Source: Paraburkholderia sp. D15
Lineage (GTDB): Bacteria; Pseudomonadota; Gammaproteobacteria; Burkholderiales; Burkholderiaceae
Length of the DNA stretch: 64,000 bases
Reading direction: 5' to 3'
NCBI RefSeq assembly: GCF_029910215.1
Contig: NZ_CP110396.1
Span: forward strand, 620,001 to 684,000
Numbering within the stretch: position 1 is the first letter of the stretch; each line of letters starts with the position of its first letter. Below are positions 18,716 to 37,606 of the stretch, piece after piece. Under the pieces are notes generated by a model. That model was not told the origin of the DNA. It saw nothing but the letters and a program-made list of their open reading frames with translations, and did no database searches. A program made the position numbers and the translations under genes.

Positions 18716-20386
18716 TCAGACCAGGCTGATCACGTTATCGACCACCCCGCCACTCGTTTGTCCGGCGCCCGCTTGTCCTCCCGCTTTTCCTCCCGCCTGA
18801 ATCCCCTTGCCGCGAATCAGATCCGCAGCCTTCTCGCCGATCATGATGCACACCGAGTTCGGATTGCCCGAAATCAGATTCGGCATGATCGACGCATCCG
18901 CCACCCGTAGACCGTCGATGCCGCGCACGCGCAATTGCGCGTCCACGACCGCCGCATCGTCGGTGCCCATCCGGCAGGTACCAGCGGGATGCAGCGCGGC
19001 GTGCGCCTCCTGCTGACAGAAGCGGCGGATTTCGTCGCGATCGAGCACCGGTTGAAACGGCACGAAGCGCCGCTCGATATATTTGCGAATGGCCGGCTGA
19101 TCCATGATGTCCATGGCCTTCGCGCAACCCTCGGCCACTGCGTCGAGATCGTACGGATCGCTGAAATACATCGGCGCGACGCGCGGGACGTCGAGCGGAT
19201 CGCGGCTGTTCAGTGCCACGAAGCCACGCGAGCGTGGCCGGATCTGCCCGAGATTGACGGTGCAGCCGTTACCGCCGGGCACGCCGTCGACGCCCTCCTC
19301 GATCCCCGCGCCGACAACTAGAAAGTACTGGATGTCGGGTGTCAATTCCTCGGCATTGCCCCACCAGAACGCGCCGCCCTCGATCAGATTCGACGCCGCG
19401 GGTCCGCTATTGAACAGCAGGTACTCCAGACCCGCCATCGCCTTCCAGCGCAGCTTCTTGTACTTGTCGTAGCTATGCGGTCCCTTGAGCTGGTACACGA
19501 GCGAGATTTCGATGTGATCCTGCAAATTCTTGCCGACACCGTTCAGTTCGGCGTGAATGTCGATCCCGTGCTTTTCCAGTTCGTCTTTCGGTCCAATGCC
19601 CGACAGCATCAACAGCTTCGGCGAATTGATCGCGCCGGCGCAGAGAATGACTTCCCGTTGCGCGCGCAATTGTTTGAGCTTGCCCTTCTCGACGTACTCC
19701 ACGCCGACCGCGCGGCCCCGTTCGATCAGAATCCTCGTCACGCGTACGCCAGTGCGTACGGTGAGATTGCTTCGGCCTTCGACAGGGTGAAGATAGGCCA
19801 CCGCCGAACTGCTTCGTCTGCCGTCCCGCGCGGTGATCTGATAGAGCCCGCAGCCGGCCGGGTCGCCGGAGTTGAAGTCTTCGTTGTAGGGCAGGCCGGC
19901 CTGCTGACAGGCTTTCAGCCATGCTTTCGTCAACGGATGAATGCGGTCGATATCGGACACGCCCAATGGACCGCCCACCCCGTGCGCATCGTTGCAGAAG
20001 CGTTCGTTGTCTTCCGCCTTCCGGAAATAAGGCAGCACGTCGTCGTAACCCCAGCCTGCCGCGCCTGAATCGCGCCACTGATCGTAATCGGAGGGCACGC
20101 CGCGAATATAGATCATCGCGTTCACCGAACTGCCGCCGCCGAGCACGCTCGCCTGCACCATCGTCGGCGTGCCGGTGCGATGCTGGTCCGCCGTCGGTTC
20201 CCACGGAATGCGCTTCAGCAACGGCCCCTGGGCCGTCTTGTAGTACGCGCCGGGAATATGAATGTAAGGGCTCCGGTCGCGCGGCCCCTCTTCGAGCAGC
20301 GTGACCGTCGCACTGCTGTCTTCGCTCAGGCGGGACGCGATCACGCACCCCGTCGATCCGCCACCCACCACGATATAGTCGACCAT
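18716..20386 (-). CDS. GMC-family FAD oxidoreductase (choline dehydrogenase-like)
   Basis: A 556-residue GMC flavoprotein. The dinucleotide fold VVGGGSTGCVIASRL is at residues 6-20, the GMC signature GGGSSVNAMIYIRG at 83-96, and the catalytic-His region HPAGTCRMG in the C-terminal part, followed by DASIMPNLISGNPN. Family members oxidise alcohols or sugars to aldehydes or ketones. The C-terminus ends in a Gly/Gln-rich tail. There is no signal peptide. It is the last gene of an MFS-Gfo/Idh-GMC operon, 78 bases after the Gfo/Idh gene, so a polyol or sugar alcohol substrate is more likely than choline. Betaine-pathway neighbours are absent. Confidence 0.9.
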   Translation of the reverse strand: MVDYIVVGGGSTGCVIASRLSEDSSATVTLLEEGPRDRSPYIHIPGAYYKTAQGPLLKRIPWEPTADQHRTGTPTMVQASVLGGGSSVNAMIYIRGVPSDYDQWRDSGAAGWGYDDVLPYFRKAEDNERFCNDAHGVGGPLGVSDIDRIHPLTKAWLKACQQAGLPYNEDFNSGDPAGCGLYQITARDGRRSSSAVAYLHPVEGRSNLTVRTGVRVTRILIERGRAVGVEYVEKGKLKQLRAQREVILCAGAINSPKLLMLSGIGPKDELEKHGIDIHAELNGVGKNLQDHIEISLVYQLKGPHSYDKYKKLRWKAMAGLEYLLFNSGPAASNLIEGGAFWWGNAEELTPDIQYFLVVGAGIEEGVDGVPGGNGCTVNLGQIRPRSRGFVALNSRDPLDVPRVAPMYFSDPYDLDAVAEGCAKAMDIMDQPAIRKYIERRFVPFQPVLDRDEIRRFCQQEAHAALHPAGTCRMGTDDAAVVDAQLRVRGIDGLRVADASIMPNLISGNPNSVCIMIGEKAADLIRGKGIQAGGKAGGQAGAGQTSGGVVDNVISLV

Positions 20387-20464: not shown

Positions 20465-21556
20465 TTATCCGTGCGTGCGCCGGTCGCGCTCGAACGCCGC
20501 GCGTTCGTCCTGCGTGAGCGCCAGGGTCGTCGTGCGGCCTTCGGCGGCCGACATGGCTGCCGCTTCCAGCAGCGCGATCAGCACGACCGCTTCGGCGGGC
20601 GTGACCGGATTCGGTCCCGCGCCGCGCAGCGCGCTTTCCAGTTGCACGTAAAACTGCGACTGGTCGCCGCGCGTCGCCGGTATCGCACGCCGCTCGCCCG
20701 CATGGCTGCGCGGGTCGTACACGTGGGCCTTATCCGGGTCCACGCCATACGCCGGGTTATCCGGCAGCAGGCCCGCGATCAACTGCTGTTCCTGAATGTC
20801 CTGGGCCTGTTTCAGCAGCGAGCGCTTCGTACCGTGCACGATGAAACGCATGCCGAATCCCGGCACGAGTTGCGCGCCGCGCAGAACGACACGCAGGCGG
20901 CCGTAGCCCAGAACCACCGTGAACCAGTCGTCGGTTCGCGCGCCATCGCGCTGCTGCGCGAACGACGCCGTGACGGACTCCGGCAAACCGAATTGCAGCA
21001 ACGCCTGATCGGCGACATGCGGTCCGAGATCGAACCACGTGCCGCCCGCCGGCACGGGCTCCTCGCGCCAGGCGCGCGGCACCTCCGGCGCATAGCGGTC
21101 GATGTGCGATTCGAAATGGACGATATCGCCGAGATCTTCGTGACGGATCGCATTGCGCACCGTCAGATAGTCGCTGTCCCAGCGGCGGTTCTGGAATACG
21201 GCGAGATGCTTGCCCACGCGCGCGGCCAGGGCCGCCAGCTCTCTCGCCTCGCCGAGCGTCGGCGTAAACGGCTTCTCCACCACCACGTGCTTGCCCGCTT
21301 CGAGCGCAAGCTTCGCGAAGCGGTAGTGGCTTTCGTTCACGCTCGCGACGATCACCAGATCGACGGACTCCGCGACGGCGGCCTGCTCGGGGCTCATGAC
21401 CGCGATGGCGTCGTCGTCGAGATCGACCTGATCGGGGCGTTGCGTGCCGATCGCCACCACTTGCAGACCCGGCACGCTGGATATCAGCGGCAGATGAAAG
21501 TGACGCGTGACGAAGCCATAACCGATGATCGACACCTTGATCCTGCTTTGTTGCAC
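20465..21556 (-). CDS. Gfo/Idh/MocA-family NAD(P)-dependent oxidoreductase
   Basis: A 363-residue sugar or inositol dehydrogenase-like enzyme. A Rossmann fold opens VSIIGYGFVTRHFHLPLI, a slightly unusual GYGFVT loop. The family signature VVVEKPFTPTLGEARELAAL supplies the catalytic Lys, and a second candidate motif is GGTWFDLGPHVADQAL with its His. Such enzymes oxidise or reduce ring hydroxyls of sugars and inositols. It sits between the MFS transporter (18-base gap) and a GMC oxidoreductase. Two oxidoreductases in one operon suggest sequential oxidation of an imported sugar or polyol. Confidence 0.9.
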   Translation of the reverse strand: MQQSRIKVSIIGYGFVTRHFHLPLISSVPGLQVVAIGTQRPDQVDLDDDAIAVMSPEQAAVAESVDLVIVASVNESHYRFAKLALEAGKHVVVEKPFTPTLGEARELAALAARVGKHLAVFQNRRWDSDYLTVRNAIRHEDLGDIVHFESHIDRYAPEVPRAWREEPVPAGGTWFDLGPHVADQALLQFGLPESVTASFAQQRDGARTDDWFTVVLGYGRLRVVLRGAQLVPGFGMRFIVHGTKRSLLKQAQDIQEQQLIAGLLPDNPAYGVDPDKAHVYDPRSHAGERRAIPATRGDQSQFYVQLESALRGAGPNPVTPAEAVVLIALLEAAAMSAAEGRTTTLALTQDERAAFERDRRTHG

Positions 21557-21574: not shown

Positions 21575-22741
21575 CTATGAATGATCCGGCGTCGCGCGCG
21601 GCATGCTGCCCGCGCACAGCGCGATGGCAATCAGCATCGCGACGACCGAGAGAAAGGCGGCGGCGAGCGACGTATAGCGTGCAATCGCGCCGATCAGCGC
21701 CGGCCCGACGAAAATGCCGCAATAGCCGACGGTCGTCATCGCCGCGACAGCGGCATTCGTCGGCATGCGCGTCTGCTCGCCGACCGACGAGAACAGCACC
21801 GGCGCGATATTCGAACAACCGGCGCCGACCAGCGCGTAGCCGAACAGATCCACCGGCCACGAAGCCGCAAAAGCCGCCATCGCAAAACCGGCCGCCGCGC
21901 ACAAACTCCCGCCTACGACGATGCGCACCCTGCCCAGCCGTTCGACAATCCTGTCACCCAGCAAGCGGCCGGCGGTCATGGTGGCGGCGAACGCGGCATA
22001 GCCGTAACCGGCGAACGCGTGCGGCATGCCGCGCTCGGCCGTGAGAAACACGCCGCTCCAGTCCAGCACCGCGCTCTCGGTCAGAAACACGATGAACGTG
22101 AACACGCTGAGCACCAGCACGACGCCGCGCGGCACGGCAAACAAGGTGGTCTGACTCCTGCGCGGTTCGGCGATCAGGCCGGGATAGGCGTAGCACGAGG
22201 CCGCGGCGATCAACGCCGCCGCCAGCGTCACCGACGCGCCTTGCGAGCGTCCCAGCGTCAGCAGCAGACTCGCGCCCGCGGCGCCGGCGATACCGCCGAC
22301 GCTATAGAACGCATGGAAGCCCGACATGATCGAGCGGCCACTGTCGCGTTCGACTTCGATCGCCTGGATGTTCATCGCCACGTCGATCACACCTGCCGCC
22401 ATGCCGAAGAGCGTCAGCGCGCACACCGCGGCGGGCACGTCGCCGACCAGGGCCAGCGCCGGCAGCACCGCGCACAGCAGCGCGGCAGATACGGCAATCA
22501 CCGCGCGACAGCCGAAGCGCGCCGCGAGGCCGCCGGTGAACGGCATCGCGATCATCGAACCCGCGCCTAGACACAGCAACAGCAGGCCGAGTTGACCGTC
22601 GTCGAGACCGATACGGGCTTTGACGAACGGCACGAGCGGCGCCCACGATGCGCGCGCGTAACCCGCCACGAGAAAGATCGCGCGCGTCGCGGCGATCCGG
22701 TTACGAAACGCACTCTTGTGCAGCGCTAGATCGGGCGGCAT
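21575..22741 (-). CDS. MFS transporter
   Basis: A 388-residue major facilitator protein with about 12 hydrophobic segments. The family loop GGLAARFGCRAVIAVSA follows segment 2 and a related loop, GDRIVERLGRVRIVVGG, follows segment 8. The sequence style resembles YbjJ/fucose-permease-like sugar MFS proteins. Its substrate is unknown. It is the first gene of a three-gene operon with Gfo/Idh and GMC enzymes, and is expected to import their substrate. Its upstream region carries a perfect 15-bp tandem duplication (22760-22789), and a strong hairpin separates it from the APC permease. Confidence 0.9.
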   Translation of the reverse strand: MPPDLALHKSAFRNRIAATRAIFLVAGYARASWAPLVPFVKARIGLDDGQLGLLLLCLGAGSMIAMPFTGGLAARFGCRAVIAVSAALLCAVLPALALVGDVPAAVCALTLFGMAAGVIDVAMNIQAIEVERDSGRSIMSGFHAFYSVGGIAGAAGASLLLTLGRSQGASVTLAAALIAAASCYAYPGLIAEPRRSQTTLFAVPRGVVLVLSVFTFIVFLTESAVLDWSGVFLTAERGMPHAFAGYGYAAFAATMTAGRLLGDRIVERLGRVRIVVGGSLCAAAGFAMAAFAASWPVDLFGYALVGAGCSNIAPVLFSSVGEQTRMPTNAAVAAMTTVGYCGIFVGPALIGAIARYTSLAAAFLSVVAMLIAIALCAGSMPRATPDHS

Positions 22742-22855: not shown

Positions 22856-24379
22856 TTATCGCGCGGTCTCGACCTGCGTGTAACCCGCGTTTGCGACGTC
22901 GCTCTCGCGCGAGGTCGCGTTCATGACCGGCGGCCCAGGGAAGCGCCGCTTCTCCAGCCCGAACCACGCGACCACCAGAATCACGAAGAAACCGATGAAG
23001 TAGTGAACGAGGATGTCCGTCGGCGGCTGCAGTCCCACCCAGATGATGAAAATCCCGCCGATGATCGCCACCGCGCCGTACGGTTTCGACAGCACGCCAA
23101 GGCGATAAGGCCCATACGTACGATTGCGGGCGAACATCGCGGCGCCGATCGCCATCCCGTAAGCGAGTTGATAGAACAGCGCCGTTCCCGCGACGAGCGC
23201 ATTGAACGCCGACGAATACAGCGTGACCGCGACGCCCGCGATGGCGCCCGCCCAGATGCCCGTGACGGGTGTGAGGAAACGCGGCGACACGCGGCTGAAG
23301 TACTTCGGCAATCCCTGATCGCGGGCGAACGAGTAGACCGCGCGCGACAAACCGGTCAATGCACTGGCACCGCACACGTATGCCGAGATCGTCAGCGAAA
23401 TGATGATGGCGTCCTTGAGCAAGGCCGGCGCCTGGATCTGTTCGAACAGCATCGAAAAACCGTCGCCGCCTTTCTTCGCGACGGCGGCCGGATCGCTCAT
23501 CGCCATGTAGAAGAGCACCAGCAACGCGGCACCCATCAGCACGGAGAGGATCACGGAATTGCGCATCGCCCTCGGCACCGCGCGCGCGGCATCGACGGTT
23601 TCCTCCGAGACGTGAGCGGCCGCGTCGTAACTGGTGACGATCCACATCGGCAACAGCAACGCGTAACCGAAGGTCAGCAACACGTTCTCGGTACGCGGCA
23701 CGACGCCACCGCCGGCATCGCCCGTGTTGTTCGTGAAGCTGAACAGATGGGCGAGATTCGCGAGGTGAATGTTGTAGAGCATCACGCCGATCAGCGCGAG
23801 CGCGCCGAGAAACGTCACGTATGCGCCGACATTGACGAACCACGAGAGCGTGCGCACGCCGGCATGATTGAGAATCGCCCAGCTCGCCATGATGATCGCG
23901 ACGCCAGCCACCTGCTGCCCGTAACCCCAATGCGACGTATCGACATGCAGCATGCCGTTCAGGATCAACTGGTTGAACAGCAGGTAAAACGCAACGGACG
24001 TGCCGCCCGCCGAGAACACATAGCCGATCAGGTTGATCCACGCGGTCGCCCATCCCCACGCCCGGCCGCCGAGCACCGACGACCAGTGATACAGCCCGCC
24101 CGCCGTGGGAATCGCCGAGCTGATTTCCCCCAGCGAGGCGGCGGTCGCATACGCGAGGCCGCCGCCGATCAGCCACGTCACCGTGAGGCCGAATGCACCG
24201 GCCGTACCGAGGCCCTGCTGCATGTTGGCGCCCAGCGCCCAGAACAACCCGATCGCCATGAACGACACGGCGAAGTTGCCGAAGCCCGACATGCCACGCG
24301 AAAGCTCCTGCTTGTATCCGAATTTCTCCAACAGGTCGGCGTCCTGCCGGCCAATGTCGAGGGGTGCACGGTCATTCAT
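22856..24379 (-). CDS. APC-superfamily amino acid/amine permease
   Basis: A 507-residue inner-membrane permease with about 12 membrane segments. The opening MSGFGNFAVSFMAIGLFWALGANMQ has the APC unwound-helix region, and ISSAIPTAGGLYHW is the conserved second motif. VSEETVDAARAVPRAM, between segments 6 and 7, is typical of the amino acid/choline (ACT) branch. Such carriers import amino acids, amines or related compounds by proton symport. AGGAG precedes the ATG. The promoter carries the CTTATACGTATAAG palindrome that also occurs before the ThuA operon, so this permease is the best candidate importer for that pathway's substrate. Confidence 0.9.
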   Translation of the reverse strand: MNDRAPLDIGRQDADLLEKFGYKQELSRGMSGFGNFAVSFMAIGLFWALGANMQQGLGTAGAFGLTVTWLIGGGLAYATAASLGEISSAIPTAGGLYHWSSVLGGRAWGWATAWINLIGYVFSAGGTSVAFYLLFNQLILNGMLHVDTSHWGYGQQVAGVAIIMASWAILNHAGVRTLSWFVNVGAYVTFLGALALIGVMLYNIHLANLAHLFSFTNNTGDAGGGVVPRTENVLLTFGYALLLPMWIVTSYDAAAHVSEETVDAARAVPRAMRNSVILSVLMGAALLVLFYMAMSDPAAVAKKGGDGFSMLFEQIQAPALLKDAIIISLTISAYVCGASALTGLSRAVYSFARDQGLPKYFSRVSPRFLTPVTGIWAGAIAGVAVTLYSSAFNALVAGTALFYQLAYGMAIGAAMFARNRTYGPYRLGVLSKPYGAVAIIGGIFIIWVGLQPPTDILVHYFIGFFVILVVAWFGLEKRRFPGPPVMNATSRESDVANAGYTQVETAR

Positions 24380-24486
24380 CTAAGTCTCCTGCGACGTCCG
24401 CCCGGTGAGAGCTGAACGAATCGAACTGCAACTGATATTCCGATGCGCGTCGCGAGCGGTTCGGCACGCGAAATCACATCACGTCA

Positions 24487-24533
24487 CTTATACGTATAAG
24501 CCTTATATTCCACGCTCAAATTTTTGCTGTCAA
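24487..24533 (-). promoter_or_regulatory. APC permease promoter with CTTATACGTATAAG operator
   Basis: On the minus strand a TTGACA (24528-24533) is followed 20 bases later by TATAAG (24502-24507); shifted -10 readings give 17-19 spacing. Directly after it lies the perfect palindrome CTTATACGTATAAG (24487-24500), covering the expected start of transcription. An identical palindrome is at 27873-27886. The position implies repression. The rest of the 408-base gap (24380-24787) holds a GTTTACC direct repeat near 24550 and the porin terminator. Confidence 0.75.
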
Positions 24534-24724
24534 CAACGGCTAAGCCACTGTTTACCCTAGGGTTTACCTGACGCACATCGACCTGCGGCCTGCGTCACTC
24601 CGCGTCATGTCGCTGCACGCGGCTTCGAGACGAGCGACACGTCGAATCGTCTGTGGAAACGAAGCGGCTTTTTGCGCTTTCCTTTTGCGCTTTCTTCTGC
24701 TCTTCGCTACGCACGCATCCGGAC

Positions 24725-24762
24725 AAAAAGGACGCCCAGGACCGGTGCAGGTCGTGGGCGCC
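24725..24762 (-). terminator. Rho-independent terminator of the porin gene
   Basis: GACGCCCAGGACC (24731-24743) pairs with GGTCGTGGGCGCC (24750-24762) at 11 of 13 positions around GGTGCA. On the minus strand it is followed by TTTTT (24725-24729), 25 bases past the porin stop. Confidence 0.8.
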
Positions 24763-24787
24763 AAGATCGCACTGCTTTGCTAACTCA

Positions 24788-25918
24788 TCAAAACTTGTGA
24801 CGCAAGCCGACGATCGCGAGCAACTGCGATTGCTTGCCCGCATCGACGTCATACGAACCCACGACGGCCTGCGCATCGCCCGCGCCGTTCTGTCCGTTGG
24901 CGTGCGTGTAGGCGCCGGTCAGGTAGACGTCGGTCCGCTTGCTCAGCAGATAGTCGACGCCGAGGTTGGCCTGGTGATACGTCGCGGAAGAATTGCCGCC
25001 GGACTTCGTGTAGTTGTAGCCGCCGATCAACTGGAACGCGGGCGTGATCATCCAGCTCGCGAACACCGAACCGTTCTGGAAGTGCTCGTCGCCGGTGAAC
25101 AGCGACGATGCGTCCGCGCTGTAACGCGTGTACGAGTACGCGGCGCCGGCCGTCACCGGACCGATCACGTACTGGCCGCCCACGCGCGCGATGTTGATCG
25201 AGCGCGCCGACGCATACGCCGCGTTCACCGAGCTGTTGAAGAAACTGTCCGACGTGCTGGTGCCGCGCGTCGTCACCGTCGCATTGCCGTTATCGACGTG
25301 CAGGAAACCGCCGGCGACGCTCAGCGCGGCGCCGTTGTACGCGGCAGCCGCCGACCACGTCTGTCCGGAACCGGTCGCGCCGGCGACGCCGCCGAGCGCG
25401 TACATCGCTTCGACGACGACACCGCCCCACGACGGGCTCGTCCACTTGACCGCGTTGTTGAAGCGCGCGCTGTCGTCGTAGTTGTCGACATCGCCGGGCG
25501 TCGCGAACAGACCGCTGTAGCTGTCGGCGGTCAGCGGCTGCAGCAGATCGGTGATCGGATCGTACTGGCGGCCGAGCGTCACCGCACCGAAGGTCGTGCT
25601 GCCCAGTCCGACGAAGGCCAGACGTCCGAACTCGCGGCCGTTGTTCGACAACTGGCCGGACCCGAGATCGAAACCGTTTTCGAGCTGGAAGTTGGCCGTC
25701 AGACCGCCGCCGAGATCTTCCGTGCCTTTGAGGCCCCACTGATCGCCGGACAGATTGCCGGAGGACATCTTCCACTGCGAGCTTTGGCCGCCGCTGTTGT
25801 GGATATACGCGATGCCCGTATCGACGACGCCGTAAAGCGTCACCGAACTCTGGGCATGCGCGCCGGTCATGCAGGCAGCGGCGCCGAGCGCGACGACGGA
25901 GATAATCTGACGTTTCAT
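24788..25918 (-). CDS. OmpC-type general porin
   Basis: A 376-residue outer-membrane porin of the betaproteobacterial trimeric type (Gram-negative porin family). A signal peptide (MKRQIISVVALGAAACMTGAHA) is followed by QSSVTLYGVVDTGIAYIHNSGG, the usual first strand. Inside are GLKGTEDLGGGLTANFQLENGF and LGRQYDP. The C-terminus GLRHKF ends in Phe for BAM recognition. The ATG at 25918 has AGGGTGA upstream. It lies between the APC permease and the HisD-like gene and has its own terminator. The position suggests uptake of the pathway substrate, but such porins are often non-specific and numerous in Burkholderiaceae. Confidence 0.93.
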   Translation of the reverse strand: MKRQIISVVALGAAACMTGAHAQSSVTLYGVVDTGIAYIHNSGGQSSQWKMSSGNLSGDQWGLKGTEDLGGGLTANFQLENGFDLGSGQLSNNGREFGRLAFVGLGSTTFGAVTLGRQYDPITDLLQPLTADSYSGLFATPGDVDNYDDSARFNNAVKWTSPSWGGVVVEAMYALGGVAGATGSGQTWSAAAAYNGAALSVAGGFLHVDNGNATVTTRGTSTSDSFFNSSVNAAYASARSINIARVGGQYVIGPVTAGAAYSYTRYSADASSLFTGDEHFQNGSVFASWMITPAFQLIGGYNYTKSGGNSSATYHQANLGVDYLLSKRTDVYLTGAYTHANGQNGAGDAQAVVGSYDVDAGKQSQLLAIVGLRHKF

Positions 25919-26299
25919 TGATTCACCCTGCTGGATATTTGTATTGAGGACCATTCCGGCGCGCGTGCTCGACGACTTGCGCTTCGCTCTGCCGGACATA
26001 TCGCTTGCCAGCTGCGTGGCTTGCGTGGACTCGCGGGAGAATCGGTACGCTGTGTCTCCTCACTTGCGTCGAAGTATTGAAATCCAATAAACGCGGCTCA
26101 ATTTCGCAATTCATCTATTTGTGGCGCACAGCGACGCACCCGTTGCGTCATGAATGTTGTCCCCGATACGTTCGCCCCACGCGGACGTTTTGCATCGCAA
26201 TTCGCCGTGCGCAATTCACCGTGCACCGTGCACAGCGCACAAAAAAAACGGCACTCTCGCGAGTGCCGAAGATGGAGCCAGCTGAACCGTCGAACCAAT
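25919..26299. other. Intergenic region: porin promoter side and HisD terminator
   Basis: This 381-base non-coding stretch contains the porin promoter region and, at its far end, the HisD-gene terminator (26241-26268). A small dyad GTGCACCGTGCAC sits at about 26221-26233. No CTTATACGTATAAG copy and no convincing small gene were found. Confidence 0.5.
26241..26268 (-). terminator. Rho-independent terminator of the HisD-like gene
   Basis: CGGCACTC and GAGTGCCG form a perfect 8-bp stem around TCGC (26249-26268). On the minus strand it is followed by eight T residues (26241-26248). It begins 32 bases past the HisD-like stop codon. Confidence 0.92.
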
Positions 26300-27583
26300 T
26301 TACGTCGGCTTGCCGAACCGGCGAATGCGGATATCCGCCTGTTCCTTATGTCCGGCAAACCCTTCCATTGCGCAAAGCCGCGAACAGTACTCGCCGACCA
26401 GCACCGAAGCCTCGTCGGTCAGCACGCGCTGATACGTGCAGGTCTTGATGAACTTGCCCACCCACAAGCCGCCGGTGTAACGCGCGGACTTCATGGTCGG
26501 CAGCGTGTGATTGGTGCCGATTACCTTATCGCCATACGACACGTTGGTCCGGTCGCCGAGGAACAGCGCGCCATAGTTCGTCATGTGTTCGAGGAAATAC
26601 AGCGGGTCGCGCGTCATCACCTGAACGTGTTCCGACGCAATGCGATCGGCTTCCTCGATCATCTCGTCGAGCGTGTCGCACAGAATGATCTCGCCGTAGT
26701 CGTTCCACGCGACCGACGCGACGGAAGCGGTCGGCAGCACCGCGAGCTGGCGCTCGATTTCCGCGGGCAACGCCTCGGCCAGTTCGCGCGAATTCGTCAG
26801 GAATACGGCCGGCGAATTGACGCCGTGCTCGGCCTGCCCCAGCAGATCCGCGGCGACGATTTCGGCGTCGCACGACTCGTCGGCGATCACCAGCGTTTCC
26901 GTCGGTCCCGCGATCAGGTCGATCCCGATCTTGCCGAACAACTGACGTTTCGCCTCGGCGACGTACGCGTTGCCCGGTCCGACGATCATGTCGACCGGTG
27001 CGAATTGTTCCGTGCCCAACGCAAGCGCCGCCACCGCCTGCACGCCGCCGACGCAGTAGATTTCGTCGGCGCCCGCGAGATGCATCGCGGTGATGATCGC
27101 CGGATGCGGCTTGCCGTCGAACGGCGGCGCGACCGCGACCACGCGCTTCACGCCGGCCACCTTCGCCGTCAGCACACTCATGTGCGCCGACGCCAGCAGC
27201 GGATATTTGCCGCCGGGGATATAGCAACCCACCGAATTCACCGGCACGTTCTTGTGACCCAGAATCACGCCCGGCAGCGTTTCGACTTCCACGTCCTTCA
27301 GCGCCGATTTCTGCACCTCGGCAAAACGGCGCACCTGCTGCTGCGCAAACTTGATGTCGGCGATCTCGCGCTCGGACAGCGTCGCGACGCAGGCCGCGAT
27401 CTGCTCGTCGGTCAGCCGGAACGACGCGGGGTCCCATTTGTCGAAACGACGCGAGTACTCGCGCACGGCTTCATCGCCGTTCGCCGCGACGTCGGCGATG
27501 ATTTTCTCGACCGTGCCGCGAACTTGCGCGGCGATTTCCGTCTGTACTTCGAGCGGCTTGCTCTTCTTCAGGTACTCGATCAC
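26300..27583 (-). CDS. HisD-family NAD-dependent alcohol dehydrogenase
   Basis: A 427-residue protein of the histidinol-dehydrogenase family. Motifs include [54 protein letters not shown], and [19 protein letters not shown] with the Zn-site Gln/His. It is probably not biosynthetic HisD: it lacks his-operon neighbours and lies among catabolic genes. Paralogues of this type include sulfopropanediol 3-dehydrogenase (HpsN) and related polyol dehydrogenases, to which its N-terminus (IEYLKKSKP) looks similar. The GTG at 27583 has GGAGAT at good spacing. It is divergent from the ThuA operon and has its own terminator. A diol, sulfodiol or amino-alcohol substrate is inferred. Confidence 0.85.
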
Positions 27584-27850
27584 AACTGATCTCCAAAGAC
27601 ATTTCTGGATGCCGTGCCGCGCCGCCGGCATGACCCGGCATGCGCCAAGCGAAACGCGACACAGCGCACATTCCGGCCAATCTTCAACTGGACGAATCCA
27701 TTCTCGTCGCCGCTTCGATCGAAGGCAATTTCGCACCCGCGCTCGAAGTGACGCCCTCTGACGCACTGTTTGCGTCGCTGTGCGTTGAACTTCGACGCCA
27801 ACCCGAAATCGGCTCGAAACCCAGGCGTCAACCCACTTGACACGACGAAT

Positions 27851-27886
27851 TTGAAGTCCCAGCATTGACGAACTTATACGTATAAG
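27851..27886 (+). promoter_or_regulatory. ThuA-operon promoter with CTTATACGTATAAG operator
   Basis: The perfect palindrome CTTATACGTATAAG (27873-27886) lies 28 bases before the ThuA start. It overlaps candidate promoters: TTGAAG (27851-27856) with TATACG 18 bases on, or TTGACG (27865-27870) with TTATTT 17 bases on. The 331-base divergent gap (27584-27914) otherwise shows no second copy. Control of the HisD-like gene from the same site, about 290 bases from its start, is possible but unsupported. Confidence 0.75.
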
Positions 27887-27914
27887 CTTATTTGACCCTC
27901 ACAGGAGTTTTCAC

Positions 27915-28574
27915 ATGACACGCGTGCTGCATCTCTATGGCGGCTGGCCCGGACACTTCCCGTACGAGGTTGCCGCCTGGACGCGCGAACTGTTTTCGGA
28001 GCTCGACTGGGAAGTCGAGCAATCGACGGACATCTTCACGCTGGACCGCGACCTCACCCAGTTCGACCTGATCGTGATCGGCTGGAACAACGCGGTGACG
28101 ACGGAAACGCTGACCACGTCGCAGGAAAACCGTCTGCTCGAAGCGATCGAGAACGGCACGGGGCTTGCCGCATGGCACGGCGCGGGCGCGGCGTTCCGCG
28201 CGAGTCTGCGCTATCACATGGTGCTGGGCGGATCGTTCGTCGAACATCCGGCGGGCGAAGGCTATCCGCATCCGTACCGGGTCAATCTGACGGACCGCAC
28301 GCATCCGGTCGTGCAAGGCGTGGAAGACTTCGAAGTCCGTTCGGAGCAGTACTACATGCAGGTCGATCCGAACAATCACGTGCTCGCCGAAACCACCTTC
28401 GACGGCAATCCGTTCCCATGGCTCAAGGGCAACAAAAGTCCGGTCGCATGGGTCAGGCAGTGGGGCGAAGGCCGTGTGTTCTATCACTCGATCGGCCACG
28501 ACGTCGGCAATCTGTCGGACCCCAACGTGCGGCGGCTGACCTTGCAGGGTCTTCAGTGGGCCGCGCGCCGCTGA
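27915..28574 (+). CDS. ThuA-like (glutamine amidotransferase-fold) protein
   Basis: A 219-residue ThuA-domain protein with a class-I-glutaminase-like fold. The start MTRVLHLYGGWPGHFPYEV, the central GLAAWHGAGAAFRASLRYHMVLGGSFVEHP and the late GRVFYHSIGHDVGNLSDPNVRRL match the family. ThuA was named for trehalose/sucrose use in rhizobia, where it works with keto-sugars made by an oxidoreductase. No nucleophilic Cys is in the elbow, as is usual for ThuA proteins. AGGAG lies 8 bases upstream. It is the first gene of an operon with a TPP enzyme and a GMC oxidoreductase, under the CTTATACGTATAAG operator. A role on a keto-sugar intermediate is inferred. Confidence 0.88.
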   Translation: MTRVLHLYGGWPGHFPYEVAAWTRELFSELDWEVEQSTDIFTLDRDLTQFDLIVIGWNNAVTTETLTTSQENRLLEAIENGTGLAAWHGAGAAFRASLRYHMVLGGSFVEHPAGEGYPHPYRVNLTDRTHPVVQGVEDFEVRSEQYYMQVDPNNHVLAETTFDGNPFPWLKGNKSPVAWVRQWGEGRVFYHSIGHDVGNLSDPNVRRLTLQGLQWAARR

Positions 28575-28683: not shown

Positions 28684-30471
28684 ATGGCAAAGCTCACAGG
28701 CAGTCAAATCGTCGCGCAGACGTTAAAGAACTACGGCGTCGAATACGTGGCCGGTATTCCCGGTCACGGCATCTGGACGCTCACCGACGCATTTCTCGAG
28801 AAGGATTCGGAAATCCGTTTCATTCAGGTGTTCCATGAACAAAGCGCGGTCCACCTCGCGGACGGCTACTACCGCGTAGCCGGCAAACCGATGGCGGCAG
28901 TCACGTCGATCGGCGCGGGCGCGAGCAACACGGTGATCGGCATGGCCACCGCCTTCACCGATTCGACCAGCGTGATGCTGATCACCGGCGGGCCGCCCAC
29001 GCATATGCGCGGCCACGGCCTGCTGCAGGAGCTGGAGCGTTACACCGACAACGACTTCCCCAAGATCGCCGAAGCGGTGTCGAAGCGTCACTGGGTCGTG
29101 CAGCGCGTCGAGGAATTGCCGTTCGTCATGCACCGCGCGTTCAGCGCGATGGTGACGGGCCGCCCCGGTCCGGTGCATGTCGAGATTCCGATGGACACCC
29201 AGGCCGAAGCCGCGGAAGTGACCCTGCACGAACTGGAGGAACGCGTGCCGGTCGGCAAGGTGTTCCCCGATCCGGCCGCGGTGAGCAAGGCAGCCGACGT
29301 GTTGCGCAGCGCGAAGCGACCGGTCATCGTGATCGGCGGCGGCGTGATTACCGGCGAAGCTTCGGCGGAAGTACTCGCGCTCGCCGAAAAATGGCAGATC
29401 CCGGTGGTCACGACGTGGAACGGCAAGAGCGGCTTTCCCGAAGATCACGCGCTGTTCGCGGGCAGTGTCGGCCAGACCGGCACGCTGTGCGGCAACAAGG
29501 TCGCGTCCACCGCCGACGTGATCCTCGCCGTGGGTTGTCGCTTCACCGACTGGTCGTCGTCGAGCTACGCGAAGGGTGTGACCTTCTCGATTCCGCCGGG
29601 CCGCCTGATTCACATCGATATCGACCCGCACGAGATCGGCAAGAACTATCCGGTCGCCGTGGGTATCGTCGCGGACGCGAAACATGCACTCGCGCATATT
29701 GTCGATGCGTTGAAGAACGACACGCCCGAGCGCGCCGAATACCTCGACCAGGTTGCCGGCTACAAGGCGGAGTGGGAAGCGAAGCTCTCCACGCGGCGCG
29801 ACTCGGACCGTTTCCCGTTCACGTCGCAACGTCCGCTCGGTGCGCTGCGCAAGATTTTCCCGCGCGACACGATCGTGGTGGTGGGTTCGGGCAATACCCA
29901 GGGCGCGGTCAAGCAGACCTTCCCCGTCTACGAACCGCGCACGCACCTCACGTCGGGCGGATTCTCGTCGATGGGTTGGGCCGTGCCCGCCGCGATCGGC
30001 GCGAAACTCGCGGCGCCGCATCGGCCGGTGGTCTGCATTCTGGGCGACGGCGACTTCCTGATGACCTCGCAGGAAATCGCCATCTGCGTGACGAACAATA
30101 TTCCGGTGGTGTTCATCGTGCAGAACAACGCAGGCTATATGTCGATTCGCGGCGGTCAACGCAAGCAGACGAGCCGCCATATCGGCACCGAGTTCAATCA
30201 TCCGGACGGCACGCCCTACTCGCCGGATTTCGAAGCACTCGGTAAGGCATTCGGTCTGAAGTCGTTCCGCGTGAACAGCAACGACGAACTCGAACCGATC
30301 CTGCAGGAAGCGCTCGACAGCAACGCGCCGGTACTGATCGAAGTACCGACCGATCGTGACGCGGCGGGTCCGTGGGTACCGGGATGGTGGGATTTCCCGA
30401 TCCCGGCGTACATTACCGACGAACGTCAGGACGAGTACACGCAGTTCCGCCAATCGGAACAACATCTGTAA
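28684..30471 (+). CDS. Thiamine pyrophosphate-dependent enzyme (acetolactate synthase-like)
   Basis: A 595-residue three-domain ThDP enzyme. The PYR domain has the activating Glu52 in VFHEQSAVHLADGYYRVAG. A central Rossmann-like domain (about 200-330) includes RPVIVIGGGVITGEAS. The PP domain has GDGDFLMTSQEIAICVTNNIPVVFIVQNN for Mg-ThDP binding. It is not Xsc, IolD or biosynthetic IlvB by its motifs, and I do not recognise the substrate. Such enzymes cleave or form C-C bonds next to a carbonyl, e.g. in 2-keto acids or diketones. The ATG at 28684 has AGGA upstream. It lies between ThuA (109-base gap) and GMC (14-base gap). It could split a keto-sugar or diketone made by the oxidoreductases. 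Confidence 0.88.
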   Translation: MAKLTGSQIVAQTLKNYGVEYVAGIPGHGIWTLTDAFLEKDSEIRFIQVFHEQSAVHLADGYYRVAGKPMAAVTSIGAGASNTVIGMATAFTDSTSVMLITGGPPTHMRGHGLLQELERYTDNDFPKIAEAVSKRHWVVQRVEELPFVMHRAFSAMVTGRPGPVHVEIPMDTQAEAAEVTLHELEERVPVGKVFPDPAAVSKAADVLRSAKRPVIVIGGGVITGEASAEVLALAEKWQIPVVTTWNGKSGFPEDHALFAGSVGQTGTLCGNKVASTADVILAVGCRFTDWSSSSYAKGVTFSIPPGRLIHIDIDPHEIGKNYPVAVGIVADAKHALAHIVDALKNDTPERAEYLDQVAGYKAEWEAKLSTRRDSDRFPFTSQRPLGALRKIFPRDTIVVVGSGNTQGAVKQTFPVYEPRTHLTSGGFSSMGWAVPAAIGAKLAAPHRPVVCILGDGDFLMTSQEIAICVTNNIPVVFIVQNNAGYMSIRGGQRKQTSRHIGTEFNHPDGTPYSPDFEALGKAFGLKSFRVNSNDELEPILQEALDSNAPVLIEVPTDRDAAGPWVPGWWDFPIPAYITDERQDEYTQFRQSEQHL

Positions 30472-30485
30472 GACGAAGAGGCAGT

Positions 30486-32084
30486 ATGAGCGATGCAACG
30501 ATAGTTCATCGCGCTGCGTCCGACCTCGATGCCTACGCGCCGGTTCTCCGGCGCGAAGTGCACACGGTCGTTCCCGGCGCCGATGGCACGATGACGTGCG
30601 ACGTGGTGATCCTCGGCTCGGGCATGGGCGGCTCCACATTCGCCCATAGTCTTGCCGGCAAGGACCTCGACGTGCTGATCGTCGAGCGAGGCGATTTCCT
30701 GCCGCGGGAAATCCAGAACTGGACGACCCAGTCGGTATTCGGCGACGGCCGCTATCGCAACGCCGAGCACTGGATCGACGATAGCGGCAAGCCGTTTTCG
30801 CCGGGCGTCTTCTACTACGTCGGCGGTAACACGAAGGTGTTCGGCGCGATGCTGCCGCGTTTTCGCGAGGCCGATTTCGGCGCGATCGAACACGCGGAAG
30901 GCGTATCGCCGGCATGGCCGATCACGTATGCGGAGATGGAACCCTTCTACGCCGCCGCCGAGCGTTTGTACAAAGTGCACGGCCAGCGCGGCAGCGATCC
31001 GACCGAGCCCTGGCGCTCGGGCGAGTATCCGTTCCCGCCGCTCGAACACGACCCGGCGCTGCATAAGCTGCATGCGTCGATGCGCGCGCAAGGTTTGCGT
31101 CCATTCGCGATGCCGGCCGCCGTCGACTACGGCGAAGGCCGCCCGTGCGTGCTGTGTTCGACCTGCGACGGTTATCCCTGCATGGTCGATGCGAAAGCGG
31201 ACGCGGAAGTGTCCGCCTTGCGCCCGGCCGTCGGCAGCGGCCGCGCGCGTTTGATGGTGCGCACGAAGATCGATCGACTCGTCATGTCGTCCGACGGCAC
31301 ACGAATCGAGGAAGCGCACGGCACGCGAGACGGCATGCCCGTTCGCATCAAGGCCAACCGCTTCGTGCTCGCCTGCGGGGCAGTCAATTCGTCGGCGCTG
31401 CTGCTGCGCTCGGCGGACCGGCAGCACGCGCAAGGGATTGGCAATAGTTCCGGTCTTCTCGGCCGCAACTATATGGTGCACAACAGTACCTTCATGCTTG
31501 CCGTGGACCCGCGCCGCGTGAACGACGTGTTCTTCCAGAAGACGCTCGCCGTCAACGACTGGTATCTCGCGTCGAAGTGGAGCGGCTTTCCGCTCGGCAA
31601 CGTCCAGATGCTCGGCAAGATTCGCGAGCCGATGGTGACGGGCATGGCGCCGTGGCTACCGAAGGCGGTCTCGCGTTACATCACCGATCACAGCGTCGAT
31701 CTTTATCTGACGAGCGAAGATCTGCCCGATCCGCAGAACCGCGTGACCTTCAACGCCGAACAAGGCCGCATTCAGGTGCGCTGGCGTCCCAACAATCTGC
31801 GGGCGCATGAAGAACTCGTGAAGAAGACCGTCGGCATGATGCGCAAGGCCGGTTATCCGTTCGTCTTCACGAAGCGCATGGGCATTGCGACCAATTCGCA
31901 CCAGTGCGGTACCGCGTTGATGGGCACGGACCCGGCGAAGAGCGTGCTCGACACCAACTGCAAGCTGCACGATGTGGACAACGCGTGGATCGTGGATAGT
32001 TCGTGGTTTCCTTCGTCGGCCGCGGTGAATCCCGCGTTGACGATTGCCGCGAATGCGATGCGGGTCGCGCAGGGTTTGAGTTGA
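30486..32084 (+). CDS. GMC-family oxidoreductase, sugar/pyranose-oxidase-like branch
   Basis: A 532-residue flavoprotein with the FAD fold CDVVILGSGMGGSTFAHSLAG near residues 38-58. There is a Cys-rich segment CVLCSTCDGYPC in the middle, and a C-terminal substrate region NSHQCGTALMGTD, followed by DSSWFPSSAAVNPALTIAANA. It is distant from the choline-dehydrogenase-like GMC protein at 18716-20386. It resembles the branch containing glucoside-3-dehydrogenase and pyranose-oxidase-like enzymes, which turn a sugar ring hydroxyl into a ketone. GAAGAGG precedes the ATG at 30486. It is the third gene of the ThuA operon. Oxidation of the pathway substrate to a keto-sugar would explain the ThuA partner, but this is inference. 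Confidence 0.87.
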   Translation: MSDATIVHRAASDLDAYAPVLRREVHTVVPGADGTMTCDVVILGSGMGGSTFAHSLAGKDLDVLIVERGDFLPREIQNWTTQSVFGDGRYRNAEHWIDDSGKPFSPGVFYYVGGNTKVFGAMLPRFREADFGAIEHAEGVSPAWPITYAEMEPFYAAAERLYKVHGQRGSDPTEPWRSGEYPFPPLEHDPALHKLHASMRAQGLRPFAMPAAVDYGEGRPCVLCSTCDGYPCMVDAKADAEVSALRPAVGSGRARLMVRTKIDRLVMSSDGTRIEEAHGTRDGMPVRIKANRFVLACGAVNSSALLLRSADRQHAQGIGNSSGLLGRNYMVHNSTFMLAVDPRRVNDVFFQKTLAVNDWYLASKWSGFPLGNVQMLGKIREPMVTGMAPWLPKAVSRYITDHSVDLYLTSEDLPDPQNRVTFNAEQGRIQVRWRPNNLRAHEELVKKTVGMMRKAGYPFVFTKRMGIATNSHQCGTALMGTDPAKSVLDTNCKLHDVDNAWIVDSSWFPSSAAVNPALTIAANAMRVAQGLS

Positions 32085-32163: not shown

Positions 32164-33288
32164 TCAAGCGCGTTTCTTTCTGCGCGGCTGAATCGCTTGC
32201 GTCGTCGCCCGCACCACGAGTTCCGTGGGCAGTACGACTCGGGGCACCGCGGATTTCCTCGCCGGCGGATTGTTCAGCAACTCGGTCAACACGCGCGCGG
32301 CGTTTCGGCCTTTCTCGATCAACGGTTGCCGGATCGTGGTGAGATTGGCGCCGGCGGCTTCGGGTATATCGTCGAAACCGATCACGGAGAACTGCGCGGG
32401 AACGGCCACCTGCCGTTCGGCGGCGATCTTGAGAAACGACAGCGCCATGACGTCGGAGGTGGCGGCGACCGCCGTCAAACCTTTGTGCGCGAGCATCTGC
32501 GCGGCCGCCCAATCGCCGTGCGCGTAATCGAATCCACCGGCTTCGATGATCACCAGATCCTCGAATTCGACGCCCGCCGCGTGCCCCGCTTTCAGATAAC
32601 CCTCCAGGCGAGCCCGGACCACGTTTTCCGTCGATTGCTGGAAACGCTCGCGCGTCACTTCGCCTCGCAGGCCATCGGGCCGCAGACGGTCGGCAATGAT
32701 GCCGATCTTCCTGTGCCCGAGTTCGAGCAGATGTTCCATCTGCATGACGCCCGAACCGAAGTCGTCGATACCGACGAACGGCGTGCCTTCGATAATCGGC
32801 GCGTCCACCACGACAAAGGGAATGTTCTGCTTGCGCGCCATCTCGATGACCGGATAGTCGTCGGGCAGGTTGTAGATGATCAGACCGTCGACGAACCCGC
32901 GCACGGCGAGACTGACGCTGCCCGGTTCCGCCGGATGATTGGCGAGGTCTTTCTGCAAGGGGAAAAGTGCGAGCGCGACGTTCGCCAGCTCGCCGATTTC
33001 ACCGATACCGCGCAGCAAACCCGTGGTGGACGGGTCGACGAATGCGTACGGCAGCTCGTCGGAAATCATCAGGCCGATCGCGCCGACGCGGCCCGATCGC
33101 AAGCTGCCTCCGCGGACGTTCGGCCCCGGATAGCCGAGCTTTTTGGCGACCTTCAGAATGTGCTCGCGCTGAGCTTCGGAGATCTCGGACGGTTTGTTAT
33201 AAGCGTAGGAGACGGCGGGCTGCGAAACGCCCGCAGCCAGCGCGACGTCCTTCATCGACACGGTTCTTTTCATTTCGAAAGAGGGCAT
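32164..33288 (-). CDS. LacI-family transcriptional regulator
   Basis: A 374-residue LacI/GalR-type repressor. The HTH reads MKDVALAAGVSQPAVSYAYNKPSEISEAQ, followed by a sugar-binding-protein-like effector domain (VGAIGLMISDELPYAF to the end). It has a basic C-terminus. AAGGA lies before the ATG at 33288; an internal ATG at 33273 lacks a ribosome site. It is placed between the ThuA operon (convergent) and the binding-protein-less ABC operon (same strand, upstream). Either could be its target. The CTTATACGTATAAG palindromes have the even length and central CG typical of LacI operators, so this protein is the best candidate to bind them. Confidence 0.9.
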   Translation of the reverse strand: MPSFEMKRTVSMKDVALAAGVSQPAVSYAYNKPSEISEAQREHILKVAKKLGYPGPNVRGGSLRSGRVGAIGLMISDELPYAFVDPSTTGLLRGIGEIGELANVALALFPLQKDLANHPAEPGSVSLAVRGFVDGLIIYNLPDDYPVIEMARKQNIPFVVVDAPIIEGTPFVGIDDFGSGVMQMEHLLELGHRKIGIIADRLRPDGLRGEVTRERFQQSTENVVRARLEGYLKAGHAAGVEFEDLVIIEAGGFDYAHGDWAAAQMLAHKGLTAVAATSDVMALSFLKIAAERQVAVPAQFSVIGFDDIPEAAGANLTTIRQPLIEKGRNAARVLTELLNNPPARKSAVPRVVLPTELVVRATTQAIQPRRKKRA

Positions 33289-33365
33289 CCAATCCTTGTA
33301 CAGCCGACGCGGGTATTGCGCAGTGACTGCGCGATCATTGTACAGGCAGCGTCGGACCGTCCGAC
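33289..33365 (-). promoter_or_regulatory. LacI promoter region with paired TTGTACAG and other dyads
   Basis: Upstream of the LacI gene, TTGTACAG occurs at 33296-33303 and 33338-33345, exactly 42 bp (four helical turns) apart. Between them is the 15-bp dyad GCGCAGTGACTGCGC (33318-33332). GTCGGACCGTCCGAC (33351-33365) follows. An inverted pair GAGGGCATCC (33281-33290) and GGATGCCCTC (near 33370) brackets them all. This suggests an autoregulatory or looped operator region. Confidence 0.5.
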
Positions 33366-33453
33366 ATGGGATGCCCTCCTGGACAGCGTGCTCTCAGGTA
33401 TCGTGGCGGCGTCTTTCGGGTTCTTGTGCTTTTGACGTTCCCGCCGTTGCCGG

Positions 33454-34548
33454 TCAGGGCACGCGCTGTTCGGTCACCGCGTCGAAGATCAAGGCCTTGG
33501 CCGCGTTCGCACTCAGGCGCACGGACTCGCCGGCTCGTCCGACACCCGGCGCGAAGCGGGTCATGATCGACTCGCCCGCTGCCGACACGAGGACGAAGTT
33601 GTCCGCGCCGGTCGGTTCGACGACATCGACGGTCGCATCGAACGCGTCGGCATGTTCGGCGAGCGCGAACCATTCCGGCCGGATGCCGAGCACGATGTCC
33701 CGCCCGATATAACGCTGCTGCCCCGGCGACAACGCGCCGAGCGCGATCTTCAACGGCTGCTTCCGGTCCTGCCCGCCGACGAAGGATGCCGCGGCGCCAT
33801 CGCCCTGCAATCGGCCTCTCAGGCAATTCATCGCGGGCGAGCCGATGAAACGCGCGACGAACAGATTGCTCGGCCGGTCGTAGACATCCTCGGGCGTGCC
33901 GATCTGTTGAACCTCGCCGCCCTTCATCACCACGATTCTCGTGGCGAGCGTCATCGCTTCGATCTGATCGTGGGTCACGTAGACCGTGGTGGTGCCCACG
34001 CGCTGGTGCAGCTTCTTGATTTCCGCGCGCATGTCGGTACGCAGCTTCGCGTCCAGATTCGACAGCGGTTCGTCGAACAGAAAGATCTTCGGCTCGCGGA
34101 CCATCGCCCGACCCATCGCCACGCGTTGCCGTTGACCGCCCGACAGCTGGCTCGGCTTGCGGTCGAGCAGTTGATCCAGTTGCAGGATCGCCGCCACGCG
34201 TTCGACGGCGGCTTCCTGCTCGTGCTTCGGCACGCCGCGCACGCGCATGCCGAACGTCAGGTTCTTGCGCACCGTCATGGTCGGATAGAGCGCGTACGAC
34301 TGAAACACCATCGCGATGTCGCGTTTCGCCGATTCGACGTCGTTCACCACCGTGCCGTCGATCACGATCTCGCCGTCCGACACCGGTTCGAGTCCGGCGA
34401 TCGCATTCAGCAAGGTCGACTTGCCGCAGCCGGACGGCCCGAGCAGCACGAGAAACTCGCCGTCGTCGGCATCGATATTGATGGCCTTCAGACAGGCCAC
34501 GTTGCCATAGTTCTTTCGAACGTCCCGGATATGCAGAGAAGCCATCAT
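33454..34548 (-). CDS. Sugar ABC transporter ATP-binding protein (MalK/UgpC family)
   Basis: A 364-residue ABC ATPase of a carbohydrate importer. Walker A is GPSGCGKST near residue 37, the signature LSGGQRQRVAMGRAMV, Walker B IFLFDEPLSNLD, and YVTHDQIEA has the switch His. The C-terminal TOBE-type domain is present. Its ATG overlaps the permease stop (TAATG). It is the last gene of the permease-permease-ATPase operon. Its closest match in the window is the ATPase at 3965-5143, from which it lacks the N-terminal tail. The binding protein is not in the operon and is probably the orphan at 17372-18649. Confidence 0.92.
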   Translation of the reverse strand: MMASLHIRDVRKNYGNVACLKAINIDADDGEFLVLLGPSGCGKSTLLNAIAGLEPVSDGEIVIDGTVVNDVESAKRDIAMVFQSYALYPTMTVRKNLTFGMRVRGVPKHEQEAAVERVAAILQLDQLLDRKPSQLSGGQRQRVAMGRAMVREPKIFLFDEPLSNLDAKLRTDMRAEIKKLHQRVGTTTVYVTHDQIEAMTLATRIVVMKGGEVQQIGTPEDVYDRPSNLFVARFIGSPAMNCLRGRLQGDGAAASFVGGQDRKQPLKIALGALSPGQQRYIGRDIVLGIRPEWFALAEHADAFDATVDVVEPTGADNFVLVSAAGESIMTRFAPGVGRAGESVRLSANAAKALIFDAVTEQRVP

Positions 34549-35465
34549 TACCCCTTGACCGCGCCGGCCATCAGCCCGCGCACAAAATATTTACCCGCCA
34601 GCACATAAATGACCAGGGTCGGCAGCGCCGCCAGCAGCGCCGCCGCCATGTGCACGTCGTAAGGACGCTCGCCCGCGCTCGCGCTGACCATGTTGTTGAG
34701 CGCGACCATGATCGGCGTGTTCTGTCCGCTCGTGAACGAGACGCCGAACAGGAAGTCGTTCCAGATACCGGTGAATTGCCAGATCACGGTGACCACGATC
34801 ATCGGCACCGAGAGCGGCAGCACGATATGAATGAAGGTGGTCCAGAATCCCGCGCCGTCGACGCGGGCGGCCTTGATCAGATCCTGCGGCACCGTCATGA
34901 AGTAATTGCGGAAGAACATCGTGGTGAACGGCAACCCGTACACGGTATGCACGAGCACGAGTCCCGCGATACTGCCCGACAGCCCCAAGGTGCCCAGCGT
35001 CTTCGCGAGCGGAATCAGCACGGCCTGATACGGCGTGAAGCTGCCGAACAGAATGATCGCGTAGACGAACCGCGAGCCCCTGAAGTTGAATTTGGTCAGC
35101 GCGTAGCCGTTGAGCGCGCCGATCAGCGCCGACAGCACGACCGCCGGCACGACCATCCAGACCGTATTGATGTAGAAGCCGCGCAGCCCGACGCAATCGA
35201 CGCCCACGCAGGCGTTCTGCCACGCATCCACCCAGGGCTGGAAGGTCGGCCGCAGCGGAATGGAGAGAATCGACGTGGAGCGGATGTCCGCCATGTCCTT
35301 CAGCGACGCGAAGATCATCACGACCAGCGGCATGATGAAGAACGCGGCGAAGCCGATCAGCACCGCGTAGAGCACGCAGCGGCCGAGCACCCTGGCAAGA
35401 CGCCGGCGCGCATTGCGCGGACGCGCCGGACGGTGGGCGAGATTAGAGGCTATCGTGGTGCTCAC
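34548..35465 (-). CDS. Sugar ABC transporter permease (MalG type)
   Basis: A 305-residue permease with six hydrophobic segments, an EAA-type loop PQDLIKAARVDGAGFWTTFI, and the C-terminal VRGLMAGAVKG of MalG-like subunits. The GTG at 35465 has GGAG seven bases upstream and overlaps the preceding permease by 23 bases. The periplasmic loop NACVGVDCVGLRGFYINTVW parallels that of the permease at 5143-6066. Together with the neighbouring permease and ATPase it forms a sugar importer lacking a co-encoded binding protein. Confidence 0.92.
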   Translation of the reverse strand: MSTTIASNLAHRPARPRNARRRLARVLGRCVLYAVLIGFAAFFIMPLVVMIFASLKDMADIRSTSILSIPLRPTFQPWVDAWQNACVGVDCVGLRGFYINTVWMVVPAVVLSALIGALNGYALTKFNFRGSRFVYAIILFGSFTPYQAVLIPLAKTLGTLGLSGSIAGLVLVHTVYGLPFTTMFFRNYFMTVPQDLIKAARVDGAGFWTTFIHIVLPLSVPMIVVTVIWQFTGIWNDFLFGVSFTSGQNTPIMVALNNMVSASAGERPYDVHMAAALLAALPTLVIYVLAGKYFVRGLMAGAVKG

Positions 35466-37536: not shown

Positions 37537-37606
37537 CGTGCTTCCGTACCCCCGTGCTCTAGAATGCGCGGTATCACTCAGTCAGGTTCGTTCACAGGAG
37601 TCGCCC

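Follow-up and report, generated by a model that had tools for sequence, protein, structure and literature searches.

In a 64,000-nucleotide stretch of the genome of the soil bacterium Paraburkholderia sp. D15 (hereafter the window), the perfect 14-bp palindrome CTTATACGTATAAG, built of the half-sites CTTATAC and GTATAAG, was found at 24487-24500 and at 27873-27886. Judging from the sequence, both copies very probably (roughly 0.87) serve as operators for the LacI-family protein whose gene lies at 32164-33288, and with it they would form a local repressor regulon. Without inducer, a LacI dimer would occupy each palindrome, a few bases past the -10 element and over the transcription start, and would block RNA polymerase at two operons. 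One, for uptake and oxidation, would comprise the co-transcribed genes of an APC-superfamily permease, an MFS transporter, a GFO/IDH/MocA oxidoreductase (GFO/IDH) and a first GMC oxidoreductase (GMC1), the other those of a ThuA-family protein, a thiamine-pyrophosphate (TPP) enzyme and a second GMC oxidoreductase (GMC2). An inducer, which is probably a pathway substrate or intermediate resembling a sugar or polyol, would act at the sensor domain and release the dimer, and both operons would be switched on together. This would tie the operon of the permease to that of ThuA, TPP and GMC2 as one induced unit, so that their products could be studied as one pathway.

Occurrence of the palindrome and of the LacI gene

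An earlier note on this DNA had listed the two copies as the only ones in the 64 kb, and this is true even when three mismatches are allowed, as no further match was found in the window. With the same tolerance, shuffled versions of the window contained 0.19 matches on average, and two matches were reached in 4 of 100 shuffles. In the complete genome (G000; 8,325,170 bases in three contigs), the exact sequence is present twice, both times in the window. At up to two mismatches, four places matched in total compared to seven for a reversed control pattern; therefore only the exact sequence stands out, and additional weaker operators in this genome are not supported. The shuffles might speak for chance, or for a non-regulatory repeat, as the source of the two copies. 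However, 0.003 exact copies per genome are expected from base composition, and all five genomes examined contain two, placed at promoters that correspond to each other. A chance origin was therefore rejected, and the probability that remains for chance or such a repeat is negligible.

LacI orthologues (E at most 1e-60) were searched in mutually overlapping genome samples with one genome per species. They were detected in 3 of 398 genomes of the family, in 1 of 369 of the class (namely that of the window), in 3 of 144 of the window's genus, in 1 of 58 and 1 of 65 of the genera of genomes G342 and G308, respectively, and in none of 60 of another genus of the family. Overall, five genomes carry an orthologue: that of the window, G308, G342, P. 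fungorum (G791) and Paraburkholderia lacunae (G797). Each of them contains exactly two exact palindromes, and all ten copies are located in the cluster; in G791, one copy with a single mismatch was found as well. In the family sample, the exact sequence was found in 4 of 398 genomes, i.e., twice in each of the three LacI genomes (3/3) and once in G188, the only one among 395 genomes lacking LacI; the reversed control pattern matched exactly once, in G065. A palindrome that is frequent outside this gene set was therefore rejected, as the five LacI genomes contain no other exact copy. The TPP enzyme showed a distribution identical to that of LacI (3 of 398 family genomes, E at most 1e-200), which argues for inheritance of the cluster as a block.

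A scan of related genomes for the palindrome beside orthologues of the same genes had been set beforehand as a check, and orthologous or equivalent genes were present at 10 of 10 sites in the five genomes. The palindrome precedes ThuA in all five, and the other copy precedes a transporter in all five. This transporter is the APC permease in the window and its orthologue in P. fungorum and P. lacunae (90-92% identical to that of the window), and an orthologue of the window's MFS transporter in G342 (75%), whereas G308 has another permease of the APC superfamily at this place; the transporter differs among genomes while the operator is kept. In the alignment of the ThuA-HisD intergenic regions of the five genomes (590 columns, 21% invariant), the longest invariant run was the 16-nt AACTTATACGTATAAG, which consists of the palindrome and two further bases, and the next-longest was the 7-nt CTTGACA of the -35 element. 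The perfect dyad is 14 bp long in the window, 16 bp at the ThuA site of G342 and 18 bp at that of G308, and the part common to all ten sites is the 14-bp core only.

Near-copies of the palindrome were seen between reg, a second regulator gene of the cluster, and a DeoR-type gene in P. fungorum (locus L016, 3199-3212, one mismatch) and P. lacunae (L015, 3111-3124, two mismatches); the window has no equivalent of them.

Position relative to promoter-like elements

At all ten sites, the palindrome lies downstream of a -35 hexamer, a 17-nt spacer and a -10-like hexamer. The -35 hexamer was TTGACA at eight sites and TTGACT at two. At the five ThuA sites TTGACA was always combined with CAGCAT, and at the transporter sites the -10-like hexamers were GAATAT, GAGCAT, GATAAT, CACCAT and CACCAT. 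Between this hexamer and the palindrome lie 4 nt at each of the five transporter sites; at the ThuA sites the gap was 7 nt in four genomes and 8 nt in one (G308). The promoters were identified by reading the sequence, and the ten sites are partly non-independent, the five ThuA promoters being of one descent and three APC promoters of another. As each palindrome follows TTGACA/T-N17-(weak -10), it covers the expected start of transcription, which would lie within or beside it, the classical place for a repressor. The earlier note had placed one copy at the transcription start of the permease and the other within the ThuA promoter; the element TTGACA-N17-(-10) just upstream of each copy agrees with this, and a strict scan (see below) reported no promoter.

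LacI might also bind these sites as an activator. CcpA, a member of the LacI family, activates from sites upstream of the -35 element (PMC2329647). All ten sites described here, however, are downstream of the -10 element, and repression was reported from centers near +9 (PMC2329647). Activation is therefore a most improbable mode of action, and repression by LacI is the preferred reading.

Fit of the LacI protein to the operator

The LacI protein contains an N-terminal helix-turn-helix (HTH) domain (PF00356, 44 bits, cut-off 27) and a periplasmic-binding-protein-like sensor domain (PF13377, 92 bits, cut-off 26.5). Among the five orthologues, 44 of 50 positions of the DNA-binding part are invariant, compared to 183 of 302 in the sensor part. 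The recognition helix VSQPAVSYAYN is identical in all five, and so is a leucine in the hinge (GGSLRSG in the window protein, GRSLRSG in G308, register set by hand). In this family the hinge leucine intercalates at a central CG (PMC2329647), and the motifs are even in 1251 of 1303 regulators and have a central CG in 1173 (PMC4052901). The earlier note had called even length and a central CG typical of LacI-family operators, in accordance with these numbers, and both features are present at 10 of 10 sites.

In our register against the lac repressor sequence and the lac operator, we take Tyr28 of the window protein to be position 22 of LacI. Tyrosine therefore stands at the place of Arg22, and the operator has T at -6 from its center. 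We further equate Arg22 with position 24 in the numbering of a published family study. According to that study (PMC2329647), the conserved arginine contacts G at -6, and all studied members deviating at this position have T. The combination of Tyr with T at -6 thus agrees with the published residue-base pairing, and would add a tyrosine case to this rule of the LacI family.

The regulator reg and a second motif

Of the regulators encoded in the window, LacI and reg are the only two that turned up in every one of the five clusters. The reg protein has a weak Cro/C1-type HTH that stays under the Pfam cut-offs, and no NCBIfam match; the rest of the protein is likewise without a Pfam or NCBIfam match. 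A second reg copy (63% identical) is present in G342. Because HTH domains of the Cro/C1 type can bind palindromes and each of the five genomes with the palindrome also has reg, reg itself might bind the palindrome. In total, reg was detected in 6 of 64 genomes searched, i.e., these five and G305. The latter, however, contains a reg of 67% identity within a cluster related to that of the window (L034; G305:C75:98000-117000), yet neither the palindrome nor a LacI orthologue was found genome-wide, and there was no LacI match in the 19 kb of the cluster. Identities of the other products were 68% for the porin, 45% for MFS, 46% for GMC2, 45% for TPP and 59% for GMC1; a GFO-like gene is also present.

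In addition, reg is accompanied by a motif different from the palindrome. This motif 2, CAATTTCGC-N15/16-GACGC-N5-GACGC, consists of three direct repeats (TTTCGCA, TGACGCA, TGACGCA) within 39-40 bp, spaced by about two and then about one helical turn. It occurs in the window (Table 1) and in the related loci L013-L016 and L034-L038. Across 40 genomes, 27 matches were obtained in six, exactly the reg carriers, and every match was on the contig that holds the cluster, whereas none was found in the 34 genomes lacking reg or on other contigs of the six, and the reversed control gave none. The pattern was derived from the cluster loci and matches there were expected; informative is its absence from the 34 genomes and the other contigs. 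Motif 2 therefore seems to be the site of the reg protein, so that LacI is left as the binder of the palindrome, and we consider binding of the palindrome by reg very unlikely. For a further candidate, the DeoR-type gene, the parts of the G308 and G342 genomes that were read contained no match.

A GACGC-N5-GACGC pair is located on the minus strand at 24570-24606, upstream of the permease promoter, and the permease may therefore also answer to the motif 2 regulator. It is the only pair used from a direct-repeat search of 17000-37600, in which the listed families were mostly similarities of coding sequences. Tentatively, and with slightly less than even odds, the cluster might be read as carrying two stacked codes: the palindrome and LacI for the ThuA and permease operons, and reg with motif 2 for the solute-binding protein, the ABC genes together with LacI, the HisD-like gene and the porin. 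If so, the level of LacI, a repressor lacking a site before its own gene, would be set by reg, and the related cluster of G305 would run on reg without LacI. Motif 2 makes reg, a regulator of an unnamed type, testable.

Points weighing against LacI as the binder

Several observations weigh against the assignment of the palindrome to LacI. A strict sigma-70 consensus scan of 24380-27920 gave no promoter, because the -10 hexamers CAGCAT and GAATAT agree with TATAAT at three of six positions only, and most of the -10 hexamers at the ten sites are weak; we still infer promoters, since hexamers and spacing recur at ten sites. The shared 14-bp core is shorter than the catalogued LacI-family motifs of 16-22 nt (PMC4052901). 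As the cluster is inherited as a block, co-occurrence alone fails to single out LacI, and reg is set aside on the evidence of a single discordant genome, G305, in which reg is 67% identical. Autoregulation was described for 72% of the studied LacI-family members (PMC4052901), and here a corresponding site is lacking: the best palindrome matches upstream of LacI (33289-33453) and of the ABC genes (36430-36714) carry 6 and 7 mismatches, respectively. LacI therefore seems not to regulate itself, and may be expressed together with the ABC genes, whose upstream region bears motif 2.

The exact copy in G188 is also to be counted here. This unrelated genome of 1.8 Mb belongs to another genus and has no LacI orthologue; the copy is located between two genes unlike those of the window, near a GntR-like gene (labels by eye), and other regulators may therefore use such a sequence. 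Short AT-rich palindromes serve other regulator families too, and the copies in the window might thus be bound by a regulator whose gene lies elsewhere in the genome, such as a member of the GntR family. Apart from G188, however, the palindrome occurs only in cluster genomes and is confined to the cluster there, so that an outside regulator would need to be inherited with the cluster. The central CG and the T at -6 moreover fit the LacI protein of the window. We therefore regard an outside regulator as highly improbable, and LacI as the very probable binder at both operators.

Gene setting

The earlier note had linked the permease with the ThuA, TPP and GMC enzymes. This link is supported, but operator 1 heads the series APC-MFS-GFO/IDH-GMC1 and not the permease alone. 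In the window the four genes share one direction past the operator. The MFS gene probably belongs to the operon of the permease, and its orthologue is the first gene past the transporter-side site in G342; GFO/IDH and GMC1 possibly belong to it as well. In P. fungorum and P. lacunae, MFS and GFO are separated by another MFS-like gene of opposite direction, and the series is therefore APC-MFS only. Motif 2, and not the palindrome, is found at the genes of the HisD-like protein, the porin, the ABC transporter and the solute-binding protein. The LacI gene, said to close the cluster, follows the sugar-ABC genes at their 3' end in the same orientation, and has no copy of the palindrome upstream.

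Table 1. Features of the window and of related loci (positions refer to the window unless a locus is given).
Feature	Position	Strand	Remarks
Operator 1, CTTATACGTATAAG	24487..24500	.	107 bp before APC permease ATG; equivalent site in 4/4 relatives
Operator 2, CTTATACGTATAAG	27873..27886	.	ends 28 bp before ThuA ATG; before ThuA in 5/5 genomes
Putative APC promoter	24501..24533	-	TTGACA, 17 nt, GAATAT, 4 nt to palindrome
Putative ThuA promoter	27837..27872	+	TTGACA, 17 nt, CAGCAT, 7 nt to palindrome
APC-superfamily permease	22856..24379	-	PF13520, E 2e-47; first gene past operator 1
MFS transporter	21575..22741	-	PF07690; 114 bp past permease
GFO/IDH/MocA oxidoreductase	20465..21556	-	PF01408 + PF02894; 18 bp past MFS
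GMC1	18716..20386	-	PF00732 + PF05199; 78 bp past GFO/IDH
ThuA-family protein	27915..28574	+	PF06283, E 4e-42
TPP enzyme	28684..30471	+	PF02775, PF00205, PF02776; acetolactate synthase / glyoxylate carboligase superfamily
GMC2	30486..32084	+	PF05199 + PF00732
LacI-family regulator	32164..33288	-	PF00356 + PF13377; proposed repressor at both operators; co-occurs with palindromes
Solute-binding protein	17372-18649	+	
Porin	24788-25918	-	
HisD-like protein	26300-27583	-	
Three sugar-ABC-type transporter genes	33454-36429	-	labels by eye
reg	36715-37536	+	weak Cro/C1-type HTH regulator
DeoR-type gene	37538-38404		
Motif 2, exact pair	17150, 17272	+, -	before solute-binding protein
Motif 2, GGCGC variant	26099	+	before porin
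Motif 2, exact	27726	+	HisD-ThuA region
Motif 2, exact	36464	+	between ABC genes and reg
Second TPP enzyme gene	L015 4287-6113; L016 4377-6113; L038 6222-8009		
Trehalose-synthase-type enzyme	L014 13881-16001; L036 4793-6870		G342, 1214 bits; P. lacunae, match split over two frames
Inositol-monophosphatase-family gene	L013 9712-10548; L014 3645-4460; L015 9141-9947; L016 8925-9947		

The closest solved relatives of GMC2 are the large subunits of FAD (flavin adenine dinucleotide) glucose and fructose dehydrogenases. The HisD-like protein matched solved sulfopropanediol 3-dehydrogenases with 400 bits, compared to 288 bits for the best histidinol dehydrogenase. The TPP enzyme scored 309 against the sulfoacetaldehyde acetyltransferase model (cut-off 620), and stayed under the cut-off of each NCBIfam model among those listed. 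It is the only TPP enzyme of the window and of the first type; in three relatives the interval from reg to the ABC genes holds another one, with about 38% identity to the first. G342 and P. lacunae encode a trehalose-synthase-type enzyme (TIGR02455) between the porin and the second operator. In four relatives an inositol-monophosphatase-family gene is located between the ABC ATPase and LacI; the corresponding gap of the window (33289-33453) has no such match.

Comparison with known systems

The regulon proposed here is a further local LacI repressor regulon, a general principle that has long been known. In the open-licence papers searched, the target set of ThuA, TPP, GMC, GFO/IDH, APC and MFS under a LacI-type regulator was not found, nor was the 14-mer, and the 12-mer core appeared only in papers on plant chloroplast genomes and on yeast; among the papers listed for pieces of motif 2, the titles bore no relation to it. 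According to PMC4052901 (RegPrecise), the local sugar-catabolic regulons of the LacI family resemble the present one in having a LacI-type gene beside few target operons with transporters and catabolic enzymes, and an even palindrome with a central CG. The window differs from them in its core of 14 bp, instead of 16-22 nt, and in the lack of a site before the regulator's own gene. The closest solved LacI-family regulator, PDB 3h5t, gave an alignment of 161 bits that spans residues 12-340; both proteins have Gly-Pro before the hinge, while the recognition helix is SRTTVSNAYN in 3h5t and SQPAVSYAYN in the window protein. Escherichia coli MalI and Lactobacillus RbsR also have no arginine at the LacI-22 place and T at -6 (PMC2329647). 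Their targets are different, and RbsR has Gln or Leu at the position that is Tyr in the window protein.

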